Of a stretch of 8,844 bases of DNA, positions 372-5,824 are shown piece by piece. The notes beneath the pieces are model-generated. The model did no database searches and was not told where the DNA came from. It saw nothing but the letters and a program-made list of their open reading frames with translations. Positions within the stretch are counted from its first letter, which is position 1; each line of letters opens with the position of its first letter. The stretch comes from a bacterium (GTDB lineage Bacteria; Spirochaetota; Spirochaetia; JABEVK01): contig JAJXVP010000107.1 in assembly GCA_021782055.1 (NCBI GenBank), positions 1 through 8,844 on the forward strand. The letters run 5' to 3'. The position numbers and the translations under genes were made by a program.

Positions 372-1760
372 TCATGGCAATTTTAACAAAGGAAAGCCCT
401 CGGGCGGTAAATCGACCGCAACCAAGAGGATGTGGTCAGCTCGACGACCCGCTGGCTGACCGATAGGACCAAGCCAGGTTTCCCAGGGAACAGCTTTTGT
501 TCCTGAAATGACCTTTAAGCGCAAGTTTCCATCTTTTCCTACCCAAGGAAACAGGATAGCTGGGTCGAGAAACCGAACAGCACCAGCCACCCCCTGGTTT
601 AAAACCTGTTGGTTGAGTCCGGCAAAATAAATTCGGCCAGGGTGGAGGGCAGTTAATAGCTCTAGTACCGGCCCGAGGTCGTCCACGTTGAACCCCGTTT
701 GCGGTTCAGCGTCTAAGAACGGGACCTTTAAGACATCGGCTCCATCCGAAGCCAACTTTCGGTCGGGGGCCAAGCCCTGGGCCAAGGTCAACCCTAAGTT
801 ACGAATCCAATCTAACGACAAAGACGGGTCGTGGTCGGGCTGCTCGCCTGGGGCGGCAGGAGAGTACCCGGGAAGCTGACTTTGTGGTCGCAATAGGTCT
901 TCAACCCGAGGAACAGGAATCTTCCACGCCCGGCACAGCGAGTCAGTCAGCCAAGCCGTCGACCCCCAAGGCCCCAAGCCCCTTTCTGGCAGTCGATAAT
1001 TTTCAAGACTAGTCCACAAGCCCCACGGTTTCCCTGTTGCGTCCGTTCCTTGGGCGTCACTGTGCGGGTCAGGAACCCATAGGCCCCAACGAGTTTCGGG
1101 GACAGTGGAAAGCGCGTGTTCCACCAACCTCGCAAGTTGTTCCACCTGGTCATCAGCGGGAGTGTGCTGAGGAATAAGCACGGACCAAGGAACTTCTTGT
1201 GCTGTTGAATCCCACAGCGATTGTTCCGGGCTTTTTAAAATTTCGGATAAAGAGGTCGGTACTTGCCAACCACCCCACACAAGGCGTCCGGCAACAAACA
1301 GATCCATTCTGCTGGTGGGTCCGCCATCCTTGGGAGTCAACCTGATCCAAGTTCCCGTATTGGCCAACAAATCGCCCTTTGGTTCGACAGGACCTGTTAA
1401 AATCAGCCTGACTTCGCGAATCCGGTCTAGCCCATCACGAAAAACTATCCAACAACCCGCCGAATAGGGCCTTCCCACATCCAGACGCATTTCCCATAAG
1501 GTTTGATCTTCGGGACCGGACCGAACTTTGCGAACGACAAAGGTTACCTCATGTCCGTCAACAGGCGAGAGCCTAAGGCGTACCGGGCGCAACTGAGCGG
1601 CGGGCGTCAAAAATAAAAGGTTTTGAACCTTGGGGTCCAAGCGATCGGCCAGAGTCGAAGGAATCAGATGGGAGCGAGTCTCGCCCCAGGGGTCGGCGGC
1701 TAAAGGGAAAGCCACTGCCAGAAAATACGCAAACAGAGCCAGAGCCCACGGAGTTCTCAT
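372..1760 (-). CDS. Sec-exported protein of unknown function
   Basis: I do not recognise the family of this 462-residue protein. Residues 1-22 look like a Sec signal peptide: Met-Arg, a hydrophobic run from about 5 to 20, and Ala-Ala before Asp23. There is no lipobox cysteine, so it is probably a soluble periplasmic or secreted protein. Residues 55-170 are beta-rich (RLRLSPVDG, GCWIVFRDG, TGTWIRLTPKDGG, MDLFVAGRLVWGGW). The rest is Trp/Pro-rich with two conserved-looking blocks: G-PWGSTAWLTDSL near 263-275 and VDDLGPVLELLTALHPGRIYFAGLNQQ near 359-385. I faintly see an NlpC/P60-like layout in those blocks, but the nucleophile Cys and the catalytic His would be missing (speculative). The ATG at 1760 is supported by AAGGA four bases upstream and by the signal peptide right behind it. 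The gene is last in the ptsI-der unit, 38 bp after der, and that gap is filled by the 14-bp repeat relay. Confidence 0.8.
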   Translation of the reverse strand: MRTPWALALFAYFLAVAFPLAADPWGETRSHLIPSTLADRLDPKVQNLLFLTPAAQLRPVRLRLSPVDGHEVTFVVRKVRSGPEDQTLWEMRLDVGRPYSAGCWIVFRDGLDRIREVRLILTGPVEPKGDLLANTGTWIRLTPKDGGPTSRMDLFVAGRLVWGGWQVPTSLSEILKSPEQSLWDSTAQEVPWSVLIPQHTPADDQVEQLARLVEHALSTVPETRWGLWVPDPHSDAQGTDATGKPWGLWTSLENYRLPERGLGPWGSTAWLTDSLCRAWKIPVPRVEDLLRPQSQLPGYSPAAPGEQPDHDPSLSLDWIRNLGLTLAQGLAPDRKLASDGADVLKVPFLDAEPQTGFNVDDLGPVLELLTALHPGRIYFAGLNQQVLNQGVAGAVRFLDPAILFPWVGKDGNLRLKVISGTKAVPWETWLGPIGQPAGRRADHILLVAVDLPPEGFPLLKLP

Positions 1761-1774
1761 AAATTCCTTCTCAT
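1757..1774 (-). CDS. Candidate five-codon minicistron 3 (Met-Arg-Arg-Asn-Leu)
   Basis: Reads ATG AGA AGG AAT TTA TGA. Its TGA (1759-1757) overlaps the ATG of the exported gene (1760-1758), and the AAGGA inside it doubles as the Shine-Dalgarno sequence of that gene. It is the last link of the presumed re-initiation relay. Translation is unproven. Confidence 0.35.
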   Translation of the reverse strand: MRRNL

Positions 1775-1788
1775 GGCCACCATCTCAT
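1771..1788 (-). CDS. Candidate five-codon minicistron 2 (Met-Arg-Trp-Trp-Pro)
   Basis: Reads ATG AGA TGG TGG CCA TGA, joined to minicistrons 1 and 3 by ATGA overlaps. The AAGG in unit 1 lies five bases before its ATG. Two adjacent Trp codons followed by Pro before the stop would be a plausible slow or stalling context, but no attenuator hairpins are visible around it. Translation is unproven. Confidence 0.35.
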   Translation of the reverse strand: MRWWP

Positions 1789-1802
1789 CGCCACCTTCTC
1801 AT
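1785..1802 (-). CDS. Candidate five-codon minicistron 1 (Met-Arg-Arg-Trp-Arg)
   Basis: Reads ATG AGA AGG TGG CGA TGA. The ATG overlaps the der stop as ATGA, and its own TGA overlaps the next ATG in the same way. Ribosomes finishing der could re-initiate here. Translation is inferred only from the arrangement; the peptide itself is probably not the functional product. Confidence 0.35.
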   Translation of the reverse strand: MRRWR

Positions 1803-3133
1803 GATCCGCCCCGAACTTCTAACTGCAACGGAATGTTGGCAAAACCTAAGTCACGGCGAATCCTATTGATAAGATATTCTACCAACGACGGTGGCGTGTC
1901 TTTTCCGTGATTGCCAAAAGCAACAAACTTGACGGGTAAAACACTCACTTGTGTCAGGTAACGAATTTTATAGGTAACGCCTTTAATCTGGGGGGTAGGT
2001 AAATCGTCCATCCAGATTTTTAACATTTCATTGAGTCTGGCTGTTTCAACTCGTTGAAGGAGTTCGCGGTGCACTTGTCCTGCCGTCTTGAGAAGCTCCC
2101 GGACGCCCTCTCCGGTTTTTGCCGAAACCGGCACGATAGGGGCAAAATCTAAAATGGGAAACAAAAACCGCACGCGGTCCTGTACGGCTTCCAGTTGGTT
2201 TTTCATCGGGGGCAAAAGATCCCATTTGTTCATGGCCAGAATCACGCCTCGGCCTTCTTTGACAATTTGGTACGCGATCTTTTTGTCTTGTTCGGTTAAA
2301 CCTTCGGCGGCATCCATCAAAAGGATCACGACATCCGATTCTGAAATCGTCTTGAGAGCGCGGTTGACCGAGTAGTACTCCACGTCCTCAACAACTTTAC
2401 CCTTACGCCGTATTCCCGCTGTGTCCATTACACGAAACCGCCGCCCTTGAAAGGTAAAGCGGCCCTCCACGGGGTCACGCGTCGTTCCAGGGATGTCCGA
2501 CACCAAAGACAAATCCGTGCCCGTGAGGCGGTTAACGAGCGTTGACTTTCCCGCATTCGGTTTGCCTAAAAGGGCCAACCGCAAATCAGGAATCTCTTCT
2601 TCGGGGATGGGGGTATCAGGCAACCGTGCAAAAACCGTTTGTGCCAGCTCATCAATGCCACGGCCATGGGCGGCACTAAGGCAAACATACTCGTCAAAGC
2701 CTAGGGAGTAAAAGTCAGAAGCCAGCAGGTCTTTTTCAAGTGAGTCGGCTTTGTTCAAGGCGGCAATAATTTTACGTCCCAGGGGGCGCAGAAGTTCAAT
2801 GAAGCCTAAATCTTCTGGCGACAGGTGACGAATATCCAAGACCAGAACGATAACGTCGGCACCACGGGCACGCTCAATGCTTTTTTGTGCTACAGCGCGA
2901 TCTAGCTCGCCGCCTTCCGAGAGGTAACCACCTGTATCTATGAGGGTAGCCGCGCGGTCGTTCCAGCGCCACGTTGCTTCGACCGGGTCTCGAGTAACTC
3001 CCGGAGTGGGGTCAGTAATTGCCTGACGTCGGCCCACTAAGCGGTTAAAAAGCGTGGATTTACCCACGTTGGGTCGTCCAACCAACGCGACACGAGAAAG
3101 CTGAGGTACGGGAGAATCACTCAATTTCGGCAA
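1799..3133 (-). CDS. der: Ribosome-associated double GTPase Der (EngA)
   Basis: Der is a two-G-domain GTPase that acts in maturation of the 50S ribosomal subunit. Both domains are intact (numbering from the TTG at 3133, 444 residues). G-domain 1 has GRPNVGKST at 19-27, DTGG at 66-69 and NKAD at 127-130. G-domain 2 has GKPNAGKST at 190-198, DTAG at 237-240, NKWD at 302-305 and SAK at 337-339. The C-terminal KH-like domain, about 360-444, ends normally for the family. No ATG fits the family's N-terminus. The TTG at 3133 has AAGGAAGG just upstream; the TTG at 3124, three codons later (441 residues), is an equally reasonable start. The frame is open to another TTG at 3208, but that would add a non-family extension lying on top of ptsI. 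The gene overlaps the end of ptsI by 17 nt (8 nt with the later start), which suggests translational coupling. Confidence 0.95.
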   Translation of the reverse strand: MPKLSDSPVPQLSRVALVGRPNVGKSTLFNRLVGRRQAITDPTPGVTRDPVEATWRWNDRAATLIDTGGYLSEGGELDRAVAQKSIERARGADVIVLVLDIRHLSPEDLGFIELLRPLGRKIIAALNKADSLEKDLLASDFYSLGFDEYVCLSAAHGRGIDELAQTVFARLPDTPIPEEEIPDLRLALLGKPNAGKSTLVNRLTGTDLSLVSDIPGTTRDPVEGRFTFQGRRFRVMDTAGIRRKGKVVEDVEYYSVNRALKTISESDVVILLMDAAEGLTEQDKKIAYQIVKEGRGVILAMNKWDLLPPMKNQLEAVQDRVRFLFPILDFAPIVPVSAKTGEGVRELLKTAGQVHRELLQRVETARLNEMLKIWMDDLPTPQIKGVTYKIRYLTQVSVLPVKFVAFGNHGKDTPPSLVEYLINRIRRDLGFANIPLQLEVRGGS

Positions 3134-4844
3134 ACCTTCCTTGACTATAGGCCGAGAGGTAAGCTTCGACCTCTTCGACACGGGGCAATTTGAGAACTTT
3201 TTCGGCAACGGCCTGTGCTTCAGAGAGGGTCAGTGACCGTAAAACTTCTTTGACACGGGTAAGGCTTACTGTATTCATGCTGAACTCGTCCAGTCCCAAA
3301 CCGGCCAAAACCAGGGCAGCTTTGGGATCGCTGGCCATTTCACCGCACATGGCTACCGGTATTCCGGCAGCGTGGGCGTTTTCGATCACCAGTTTGATTA
3401 GCCGCAGCACGCCGGGGTGCAACGGCTCGTAAAGCCCAGCAATCCGCTCGTTTCCCCTATCGACGGCCAAGGTATATTGAGTCAGATCGTTGGTTCCAAT
3501 CGAAAAGAATTCTACCATACGGGCTAAATGGTCCGAAACCAAGGCCGCCGAAGGGACCTCGATCATCGTCCCAATCGGAATGTGAGGAATGGGAATCCCC
3601 TCTGACAAGAGTTCTTCGCGAACATCCTGAAACACGGCTAAAACCTGTTCTAATTCTCCAACGCCCGAAATCATAGGGAACATAATTTTCAAGTTTCCAT
3701 GACACGCGGCTCGCAATAAGGCCCGTAGTTGCGTACGAAAAATTTGCTGATCCGCCAGGCAGTAGCGAACGGCTCGCCAACCCAAAAGGGGATTCGATTC
3801 TTTGAACGGATAGGCATCGGGGGCTAACTTATCCCCGCCCAAGTCTAGGGTGCGGATTGTAACCGGCTTGGTTCCCATCCCTTCTAAGACTTGTTTATAA
3901 GCGAGGAACTGCGTTTCTTCATTGACCAAAGCGCCATGCTGAATAAAAAGAAACTCGGAACGGTAAAGCCCAATACCTTCGACCCCGTGTTCGATAACAG
4001 AAGGAACCTCTTCAGGAATTTCAATATTGGCCTTGAGTGTGAATGGTTTGCCATCTCGAGTAGTACAAGGCAAAGACTCTAAGGCCGCTAAGTGATGGCG
4101 GCGGCGAAGAAACTCTTTTTGCTTGGTGCGATAGTCTGCGAGTAATTCTTCGGTGGGGTTGATGAGCACCCTGCCCTGTTCACCATCCACAATCAGCCAG
4201 TCACCTGTTTTTACTTCTTTCGAGATGCGTCCCAATCCCAAGACTGCGGGAATTTCAAAGGATCGGGCTAAAATGGCGGTATGAGTGGTTTTCCCGCCCA
4301 CATCCATGGCCAAACCCTGAACAAATTTCTTATTCATGGCAACGGCGTCGCTGGGCATGAGGTTGGGTGCTACTAAAATTACTTCAGATTTTAACTCAGC
4401 AAGTTGAGTACGCGGGGTCTTACCCAAGAGATGTTGCATAACTCTTCGTGAGACATCGCGGATGTCCAGGGTTCGCTCTTTCAAATAGACATCTTCTACG
4501 GTACCTAACTTGATGATGAGTTCGTTTACCACGTCCTGGAGGACCCATTCGGCGTTTTTTCGGGTTCTGGTAATCCGTACATCCACTTTGGCTTGAACTT
4601 CGGGGTCACGGAGCATCAAAATGTGGGTCGATAAAAAACCATCGGGGTCGGAGCCTCCCCGATTAAGAACCTCTTCTAAATCTTTCGTTGCTAGATCAAC
4701 GGCCTGCCGATAGCGATTCATTTCATCGACAACATCCCGCTCAAGAATGTTATATTCCGGAATATCTAAGTCGTCATCGCGGTAGAGGTACACACGACCG
4801 ATAGCAAATCCGGGGGAGGCCGGCACGCCTCGCAACTCATTCAT
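3117..4844 (-). CDS. ptsI: PTS enzyme I (phosphoenolpyruvate-protein phosphotransferase)
   Basis: Cytoplasmic enzyme that takes phosphate from PEP and passes it to HPr, the first step of PTS sugar uptake and PTS signalling. The 575 residues match the usual family length. The N-terminal domain carries the phosphorylated His188 in GGKTTHTAILARS. The C-terminal PEP-binding barrel has Arg295 (GLYRSEF), Arg331 (IRTLDLGGDK), Glu429 (MIEVPSAA), Asn452/Asp453 (GTNDLTQY), Arg463 (DRGNE) and the acid/base Cys500 (AMCGEMA). All match the known catalytic set of the E. coli enzyme, so it should be active. The ATG at 4844 gives the canonical start MNELRGVPASPGFAIG, and in-frame TAA and TAG lie immediately upstream, so no earlier start exists. 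There is no spacer for a ribosome-binding site because the promoter -10 box ends five bases before the ATG. HPr and EIIA genes are not in the window. First gene of the ptsI-der-exported protein unit. Confidence 0.97.
   Translation of the reverse strand: MNELRGVPASPGFAIGRVYLYRDDDLDIPEYNILERDVVDEMNRYRQAVDLATKDLEEVLNRGGSDPDGFLSTHILMLRDPEVQAKVDVRITRTRKNAEWVLQDVVNELIIKLGTVEDVYLKERTLDIRDVSRRVMQHLLGKTPRTQLAELKSEVILVAPNLMPSDAVAMNKKFVQGLAMDVGGKTTHTAILARSFEIPAVLGLGRISKEVKTGDWLIVDGEQGRVLINPTEELLADYRTKQKEFLRRRHHLAALESLPCTTRDGKPFTLKANIEIPEEVPSVIEHGVEGIGLYRSEFLFIQHGALVNEETQFLAYKQVLEGMGTKPVTIRTLDLGGDKLAPDAYPFKESNPLLGWRAVRYCLADQQIFRTQLRALLRAACHGNLKIMFPMISGVGELEQVLAVFQDVREELLSEGIPIPHIPIGTMIEVPSAALVSDHLARMVEFFSIGTNDLTQYTLAVDRGNERIAGLYEPLHPGVLRLIKLVIENAHAAGIPVAMCGEMASDPKAALVLAGLGLDEFSMNTVSLTRVKEVLRSLTLSEAQAVAEKVLKLPRVEEVEAYLSAYSQGRFAEIE
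3135..3142 (-). promoter_or_regulatory. Shine-Dalgarno sequence for der, inside the end of ptsI
   Basis: AAGGAAGG on the minus strand lies one base before the TTG at 3133 and ten bases before the TTG at 3124. It is the only good ribosome-binding sequence near the expected N-terminus. It supports a TTG start in this region but does not decide between the two TTGs. Confidence 0.6.
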
Positions 4845-4879: not shown

Positions 4880-4916
4880 ACAAAGGTTTCGGTTATGCTG
4901 ATTAAGTCCTTTTGCC

Positions 4917-4951: not shown

Positions 4952-5824
4952 ATGGCAAAACAGCGATTTCCCACTTGGGCTTTGGCTTGGCTAACCGGCT
5001 TAGTCCTCGCGGCGGCAATTTTTCTTGCCAACAAGGATGCCGTCGATCGTCTGATGGACGCCACAGGACTTACTCGGGTTCTTTACCCAGGAACAGCCAA
5101 TTTGGCCGCCGAAGTGGTGCGGCAAGACAAGCATTTGGACCAACCAGCGCGCATCGTTCTCGATCAGGCCCCTGCACAACAGGTTTTACCCTTGTCCGAA
5201 CAGTCGCCGGCCGACCCGTCTATCGACCAAACCCCCATCGGTCCTCCAGGAACGCCGCTGGATCAACTGACAACCAGTGCGATCATTCTACCGAGCAACG
5301 GCGTTTTACCCACACCCCCAACTACCCCGCTAGAAACACCAGTAGCTTCATCTACGCCACTCCTGCCGACACCCTCGTCAGCTCCTGCACCATCGCCTAC
5401 CCCGCAAGGTGAAAGCCTCTACTTTTTAAAGATGGGACCCGATGGCCGGCTAGAGCCCACTCCCTACCAACGGGAACTCATTGCAGGTTCTACCCCTTTA
5501 ACAGCAGTAATACGCGGCCTACTCATGGGGCCGACCATTTTTGAAAAGAACGCGGGAGCCATCACGCTGATTCCCAATGGGACTCAGCTCCTTTCGGCTC
5601 GCGTCGACAAGGGCACCGCCTTTCTCAGTTTCAGCGATGAGTTCACCCATAACAAAATGGACTTAGAGGGGTTTGCCGGTCAGTTGAAAGAGTTAGTCTG
5701 GACCGCCACGCAGTTCCCCTCCGTTCAACGGGTTCAGTTCCTGGTCAATGGCCAATACCGTGACAGCCTGGGAATGGATGGCTTATCCATCGCTATTCCC
5801 CTCAGCCGTGCCAGCTTTCATTGA
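4952..5824 (+). CDS. Membrane-anchored GerMN-domain protein
   Basis: The 290 residues begin with a short basic end and one hydrophobic helix (about 8-26, without a clear signal-peptidase site), so the protein is probably anchored in the inner membrane with the rest outside. Residues 70-152 form a Pro/Thr/Ser-rich low-complexity linker. Residues 153-283 look like a GerMN domain: LYFLKMGPDGRLEPTPYQREL, then PLTAVIRGLLMGPT, NGTQLLSARVDKGTAFLSFSDEF, QLKELVWTATQFPSVQRVQFLVNG. The domain is named after Bacillus GerM (sporulation/germination) but is also found in non-spore-formers, where its role is mostly unknown; binding or organising cell-envelope material is a guess. The ATG at 4952 has no Shine-Dalgarno. 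The gene diverges from ptsI and overlaps tlyA tail to tail by 42 bp. A fully open second frame at 4912-5412 is a by-product of the low-complexity linker. Confidence 0.85.
   Translation: MAKQRFPTWALAWLTGLVLAAAIFLANKDAVDRLMDATGLTRVLYPGTANLAAEVVRQDKHLDQPARIVLDQAPAQQVLPLSEQSPADPSIDQTPIGPPGTPLDQLTTSAIILPSNGVLPTPPTTPLETPVASSTPLLPTPSSAPAPSPTPQGESLYFLKMGPDGRLEPTPYQRELIAGSTPLTAVIRGLLMGPTIFEKNAGAITLIPNGTQLLSARVDKGTAFLSFSDEFTHNKMDLEGFAGQLKELVWTATQFPSVQRVQFLVNGQYRDSLGMDGLSIAIPLSRASFH
5783..5824. other. 42-bp tail-to-tail coding overlap of the GerMN gene and tlyA
   Basis: The last 14 codons of the GerMN gene, including its stop, are antisense to the last 14 codons of tlyA. Both stretches encode tails beyond the conserved domains. 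I see no bidirectional hairpin terminator nearby, so the two transcripts would have overlapping 3' ends. Confidence 0.8.

Follow-up and report, generated by a model that had tools for sequence, protein, structure and literature searches.

A relay of three five-codon minicistrons joined by AUGA overlaps between der and an exported-protein gene of a spirochaete, a possible translational bridge

In an 8,844-nt stretch of spirochaete DNA (contig JAJXVP010000107.1, hereafter the window), the 38-nt gap that separates the stop codon of der from the start of an exported-protein gene at position 1760 is filled end to end by three five-codon minicistrons, and stop and start share an ATGA (-4 spacing) at all four junctions of the array. 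The best single explanation that we can offer, tentatively and at somewhat less than an even chance, is that the array acts as a translational bridge, which keeps termination-reinitiation coupling between the two genes and loads ribosomes; neutral duplication comes close behind.

Direct reading of the minus strand places ATGAGA at 1802, 1788, 1774 and 1760, with a constant spacing of 14 bp, in the order GGCGGATC ATGAGAAGGTGGCG ATGAGATGGTGGCC ATGAGAAGGAATTT ATGAGAACTCCG, where ATGAGAAGGTGGCG onward follows from the end of der. This confirms what an earlier, sequence-only reading had described, namely four such motifs, three five-codon minicistrons and four AUGA junctions. Minicistron 1 (1785..1802, minus strand; ATG AGA AGG TGG CGA TGA, MRRWR*) overlaps with its ATG the der stop (TGA, 1801-1799); minicistron 2 (1771..1788, minus strand; ATG AGA TGG TGG CCA TGA, MRWWP*) follows, and minicistron 3 (1757..1774, minus strand; ATG AGA AGG AAT TTA TGA, MRRNL*) overlaps with its TGA the ATG of the exported-protein gene. 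An additional ATG (1781..1783, minus strand) lies in frame with minicistron 3 and would give MVAMRRNL*. The array consists of three 14-bp tandem units (1761..1802, minus strand), each made of an ATGA and a Shine-Dalgarno (SD)-like purine run for the next ATG, and Tandem Repeats Finder reports it independently (1769-1803, period 14). As in a leader minicistron or a bicistronic design, a short ORF is combined with an SD and stops at the next start. Pairwise, the three units match at 12/14, 9/14 and 8/14 positions with every ATGA intact; such differences between copies argue against a repeat that is both perfect and very recent, and against a simple artefact of assembly. Because 14 is 2 mod 3, successive TGAs fall in different frames, so that a ribosome in any of the three frames meets a stop within the array, and always one that overlaps an ATG. 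The window holds one such array, and the three-unit pattern is absent from the relative G001.

For the bridge, we infer a history, a hand-off and funnelling of ribosomes, selection and any effect of unit number, as follows. In the ancestor, der and the exported-protein gene would likely have overlapped directly by AUGA, and 14-bp units, each carrying an SD-like run and an AUGA, would have been inserted there in the lineage of the window. A ribosome ending der would restart on the overlapping AUG, read five codons and stop on the next AUGA, and these steps would be repeated until it restarts on the exported-protein gene; free ribosomes could also load at each SD and be funnelled likewise. With a unit length of 2 mod 3, restarted ribosomes would reach the next start instead of running through out of frame, and slippage could add or remove units while leaving the chain unbroken. 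Coupling through AUGA overlaps is well studied (PMC6728339, PMC10666635, PMC12548453). Each junction of the array is such an overlap, and three relatives have a single one between der and the exported-protein gene, whereas the window chains four of them through three five-codon ORFs. Reporter assays on six gene pairs are described as showing that coupling is nearly lost once the genes lie about 20 nt apart (PMC10666635), so that der and the exported-protein gene should be largely uncoupled if 38 nt of plain sequence lay between them. A bridge may be unnecessary, because a review cites several E. coli studies in which coupling, although reduced, was still real at distances of up to about +40 nt, with a weaker distance dependence (PMC12548453). 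Ribosomes should moreover be lost at each hand-off. Five-codon ORFs containing AGA or AGG may drop peptidyl-tRNA in E. coli; these codons account for 6% (AGA) and 8% (AGG) of the arginine codons of G001.

We compared the junction among relatives, using one scan of genome contigs with the exported-protein alignment, which yielded three loci, all from spirochaetes; the exported-protein profile matches six of the seven genomes of the order in our collection. The closest genome relative (L001, JABEVK010000076.1), whose der and exported protein are 97% and 95% identical to those of the window, has a junction that reads der...TC ATGAAAGGACAGTC ATGAGGACG..., that is, a single 14-bp unit that has an ATGA at each end and keeps the register. 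G006, G003 and G002 (der 74%, 67% and 66% identical) lack any unit, and their two genes overlap directly by ATGA; in G004 and G005 (52-54%), the end of der is not an ATGA. Unit counts across the window and the four readable relatives are thus 0, 0, 0, 1 and 3, a variation seen between species, and none of the four shows another unit length or register; what the sequence-only reading predicted for relatives, with repeats of other lengths and no ATGA phase as its refuting case, holds in these four genomes. That the register is kept in relatives while the unit count differs speaks for the bridge. The simplest history is one in which the ancestor would have had no unit and counts of one and three would have arisen in the lineage of the window.

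The same history could have been neutral, and we regard this as a serious alternative, if a less probable one. Slippage would then have duplicated a stretch with an ATGA overlap, the register would be an inherited one-in-three accident, and the array would only move the start 42 nt away. Conservation of the phase alone is weak evidence of selection, since the register of a single unit is set by the der stop, the next start and a length with a one-in-three chance of fitting. Aligned globally, the window and L001 (87% DNA identity over 6,621 columns) differ at the junction by one 28-bp gap, equal to exactly two units, which speaks for the bridge; three other non-coding gaps, of 29, 10 and 21 bp, separate the two sequences, so that indels are not rare in this comparison, as a neutral origin would have it. 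Against such an origin, the copies have diverged at many positions, yet each ATGA is intact, and L001 shares the unit length although its unit agrees in sequence with any one window unit at no more than 7-8 of the 14 positions.

A survey of similar arrays bears on both readings. Of 394 Spirochaetia genomes, 14 contain four ATGAs spaced by 14 bp and 8 contain a reversed control pattern; many of the matches are plain minisatellites. We read eight places, one per genome, from eight of the 14 genomes: two are gene-to-gene chains (L425 and L426), while the other six are not clear gene-to-gene relays, counts that favour neutral duplication. At L426 (genome G363), a chorismate synthase gene (Pfam, 221 bits) ends in ATGA and is followed by four ATG frames spaced by 14 bp and by two TTG-started frames, and a peptidase S11 gene (61 bits) starts 10 nt after the last small frame. 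At L425 (genome G053), the upstream gene has a weak spore-photoproduct-lyase match, which falls below the Pfam cut-off. This gene, too, ends in ATGA, and after it come frames of 19, 5, 5, 8 and 8 codons; the final frame shares 8 nt with the start of a FecR-domain gene. In neither chain is the downstream link as exact as that of the window; as for the upstream link, every reading frame of a 14-bp ATGA array contains a TGA, and a gene entering such an array will automatically end on ATGA, which makes this link weaker evidence than it seems. The array is missing from a sister of G363, to which it is 92% identical in the AroC part, and from three further members of the genus that we read, implying that 14-bp arrays come and go, which again suits a neutral origin. 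Two other 14-bp ATGA arrays (L427 and L428) chain five-codon frames beside open frames and were not judged to be gene junctions.

We also asked how gene junctions are spaced in general, in 2.19 Mb of sequence stretches from three order-mates. The ORF caller was crude: it took frames of at least 80 aa and dropped neighbours overlapping by more than 60 nt, and so it misses the focal junction in the window, where the overlong frame of der overlaps ptsI by more than 60 nt, and finds it in L101. Unbroken single-step ATG relays are present at nine of 1,135 co-directional junctions (units of 5, 14, 20, 11, 11, 56, 38, 14 and 17 nt), and ATG-only relays with two or more steps at none of these 1,135, a point against the bridge. 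When GTG and TTG links were allowed, 22 single-step relays were found, along with six that take two or three steps and whose units are mixed and mostly longer. The two- and three-step chains with such links lie at L046, L053, L077, L126, L165 and L145, with units of 5-74 nt and putative gene starts. At L137 (G002), two gene starts with a lipoprotein-like signal each follow an 11-nt relay, perhaps a gene duplicated together with its junction.

A relay requires a distance of 2 mod 3; otherwise the small frame of a restarted ribosome misses the next start and the ribosome is lost. The register was counted after deduplication, in which junctions sharing a 14-mer were dropped (1,112 of 1,137 kept, in a set that includes one G006 contig) and one of two similar 11-nt relays in G002 was also removed. 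For genes that end in ATGA, lack a direct overlap and have the next ATGA start within 60 nt, ten junctions are in the relay register and one is in the other, the in-frame register being absorbed by direct overlaps, as against 39:68 for control genes with other endings (Fisher p = 0.0006), a comparison that has only 11 informative junctions and was framed after the first relays had been seen. With the focal junction left out, the count is 9:1 (p = 0.0014); with any ATG start, again leaving out the focal junction, it is 14:4 versus 101:142 (p = 0.005). In two of the ten relay-register junctions a stop comes earlier, and these two are no genuine relays. The enrichment of the relay register at unrelated junctions argues against an inherited accident of slippage. 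A wider rule can be formulated, although we consider it unlikely: bacteria that use AUGA coupling would preferentially keep inserts of 2 mod 3, tandem units would be slippage-adjustable relays whose change in length alters the ratio of the two proteins, and the window would be a three-step example among single-step relays scattered in related genomes.

Two phage sets contain no ATG relay in 680 deduplicated junctions (217 lambda-like and 463 cyanophage). The lambda-like set is highly redundant, 217 of its 1,181 junctions being kept, against 463 of 1,333 for the cyanophage set; before deduplication, the 2,514 junctions (1,181 + 1,333) include one ATG relay, of 5 nt (L339), a near absence that speaks against the bridge. 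Relays with GTG or TTG links number 45 in the 1,181 lambda-like junctions, probably copies of a few junctions, and 2 in the 1,333 cyanophage junctions. As independent evidence on the register rule, the phage sets were rejected because they hold too few informative junctions, and 25 other spirochaete loci provided no informative junction.

The strength of the start sites was estimated from the predicted pairing with an assumed sequence of the 16S tail. The predicted SD energies are -7.2 kcal/mol at 1802, -7.8 at 1788, -9.1 at 1783, -7.2 at 1774 and -6.6 at 1760, the ATG at 1783 having the strongest match of the five. Direct-overlap ATGA starts in G001 have a median of -6.8 (n = 73), and random coding positions a median of -2.9 and a 10th percentile of -6.4 (n = 1856). 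All five ATGs of the array hence have an SD like that of direct-overlap starts, and stronger than the 10th percentile of the random coding positions, in favour of the bridge. Against it, initiation at 1760 could probably proceed independently from the last SD (AGAAGG), which seems strong enough. Another explanation, which we find improbable, is that the unit brings a better SD to the exported-protein gene, with incidental minicistrons and with loading mainly at the last SD or by diffusion from upstream SDs. Purine runs such as AGAAGG in the units fit this explanation, as does the -9.3 kcal/mol predicted for the single unit of L001, but an SD of similar predicted strength (-7.2) already stands inside der before the ATG at 1802, and an SD cassette needs neither a length of 14 bp nor an ATGA at both ends. 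An annotation or assembly artefact, with the true start elsewhere or the repeat misassembled, is very improbable, as the start at 1760 agrees with the predicted start of the homologue P0001 and with the aligned start in L001, the units differ from each other, and L001, a separate record, has one unit of equal length. RNA structure was rejected as the function, the junction folding no better than its shuffles (z = +1.14), and no sigma-70-like promoter was found in the gap when region 1500-2200 was searched.

The sequence-only reading knew of no described example of such a coupler; to say that there is none would be too strong, as precedents exist in mycobacterial interspersed repetitive units (MIRUs; PMC12548453), integron short ORFs (PMC8876359) and the rnc-fpg1 repeat (PMC2734929). 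As a whole, its interpretation is supported in part, by the register in relatives, the register bias at other junctions and the two further chains. MIRUs are given as units of 40-100 bp (PMC2734929) that carry an ORF coupled at -4 spacing (PMC12548453); those of senX3-regX3 are reported to differ between strains, with three 77-bp units or two of 77 bp and one of 53 bp (PMC4213456), and by our own arithmetic 77 and 53 are also 2 mod 3. Like the units of the window, MIRUs are repeats at gene starts, containing an ORF with the -4 spacing; unlike them, they measure 40-100 bp against 14 bp, appear mobile and are described at 41 places in one genome. At rnc-fpg1 of Mycobacterium tuberculosis, a longer variable tandem repeat is reported to go with higher fpg1 mRNA, a link that its authors called the first of its kind for a bacterial gene (PMC2734929), and which is therefore a precedent for tuning by repeat length, at the mRNA level. 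That repeat, too, lies between two co-directional genes and is absent from most other species, but its units measure 16-18 bp, among other lengths, it begins 40 bp downstream of the rnc stop and its effect was measured on mRNA, and the part of the source available describes no minicistron relay (PMC2734929).

Integron short ORFs (ORF-11, ORF-17 and ORF-18 in attI1, and short ORFs in attC) are reported to hand ribosomes to the next gene, and for the attC short ORF the ribosome is proposed to come from the stop of the preceding gene (PMC8876359). A short ORF thus passes ribosomes onward as in the relay proposed for the window, whereas ORF-11, -17 and -18 are single, have 11-18 codons and form no tandem array in the accessible text of that source (PMC8876359). 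A two-codon minigene in axe-txe is described as raising txe translation (PMC8708949); in it, as in synthetic bicistronic designs (PMC5995908, PMC10367133), the upstream ORF is tiny and the stop-to-start distance matters, but there is one short ORF and, as far as these sources describe, no chain. A search by title and abstract, thin on subscription journals, found no relay of several ORFs this short. To our knowledge, the array of the window is the most exactly chained tandem case. The principle is thus known from single AUGA coupling, integron short ORFs and mycobacterial MIRUs, and what is new is that the unit measures 14 bp, that three minicistrons are chained exactly and that the register is biased. 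If the bridge is real, it would give a simple rule by which operon genes drift apart without losing coupling, a natural ladder (0, 1 and 3 units) on which to measure the loss per reinitiation step, and a compact repeat able to shift protein ratios through slippage; annotation should then not ignore five-codon ORFs between genes.

By Pfam, the neighbours of the array are housekeeping genes: der, a PEP-utilising enzyme (ptsI-like), a GerMN-domain gene, an FtsJ-type (tlyA-like) gene, ymdB and rny. The GTPase gene der (engA; 1799..3208 as the longest listed ORF, minus strand) matches MMR_HSR1 in two stretches and KH_dom-like; the ORF from 3208 is probably too long, and der likely starts, judging from its sequence, at a TTG near 3124, inside ptsI. 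With a start at TTG 3124, preceded by GGAAGG, ptsI and der would overlap by 8 nt (3117-3124). Overlaps are also seen at the neighbouring junctions rny-ymdB (11 nt) and ymdB-tlyA (1 nt), and these junctions count in favour of the bridge. The exported-protein gene (372..1760, minus strand) encodes 462 aa with an N-terminal hydrophobic segment read from the sequence; the protein matches no Pfam family and, below E 0.1, no PDB fold, and its predicted model is fairly confident (mean pLDDT 83.6). Among 7,997 candidates scored, 16 are homologues; relatives with a named organism are spirochaetes only, and one homologue is named as a Spirochaetales bacterium. The homologue P0001 has no match in viral contigs, and no DNA similar to the window was found in plasmids (distant mode) or phages (near mode). 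The family has many invariant Trp, Gly and Arg residues, and its gene adjoins der in G001, G002, G003 and G006. Elsewhere in the window, a 29-bp stretch between ptsI and the GerMN-domain gene (about 4884-4912) is missing from L001, and the GerMN-domain gene (plus strand, ending at 5824) and the FtsJ/tlyA-like gene (minus strand, ending at 5783) overlap tail to tail by 42 bp (5783-5824).
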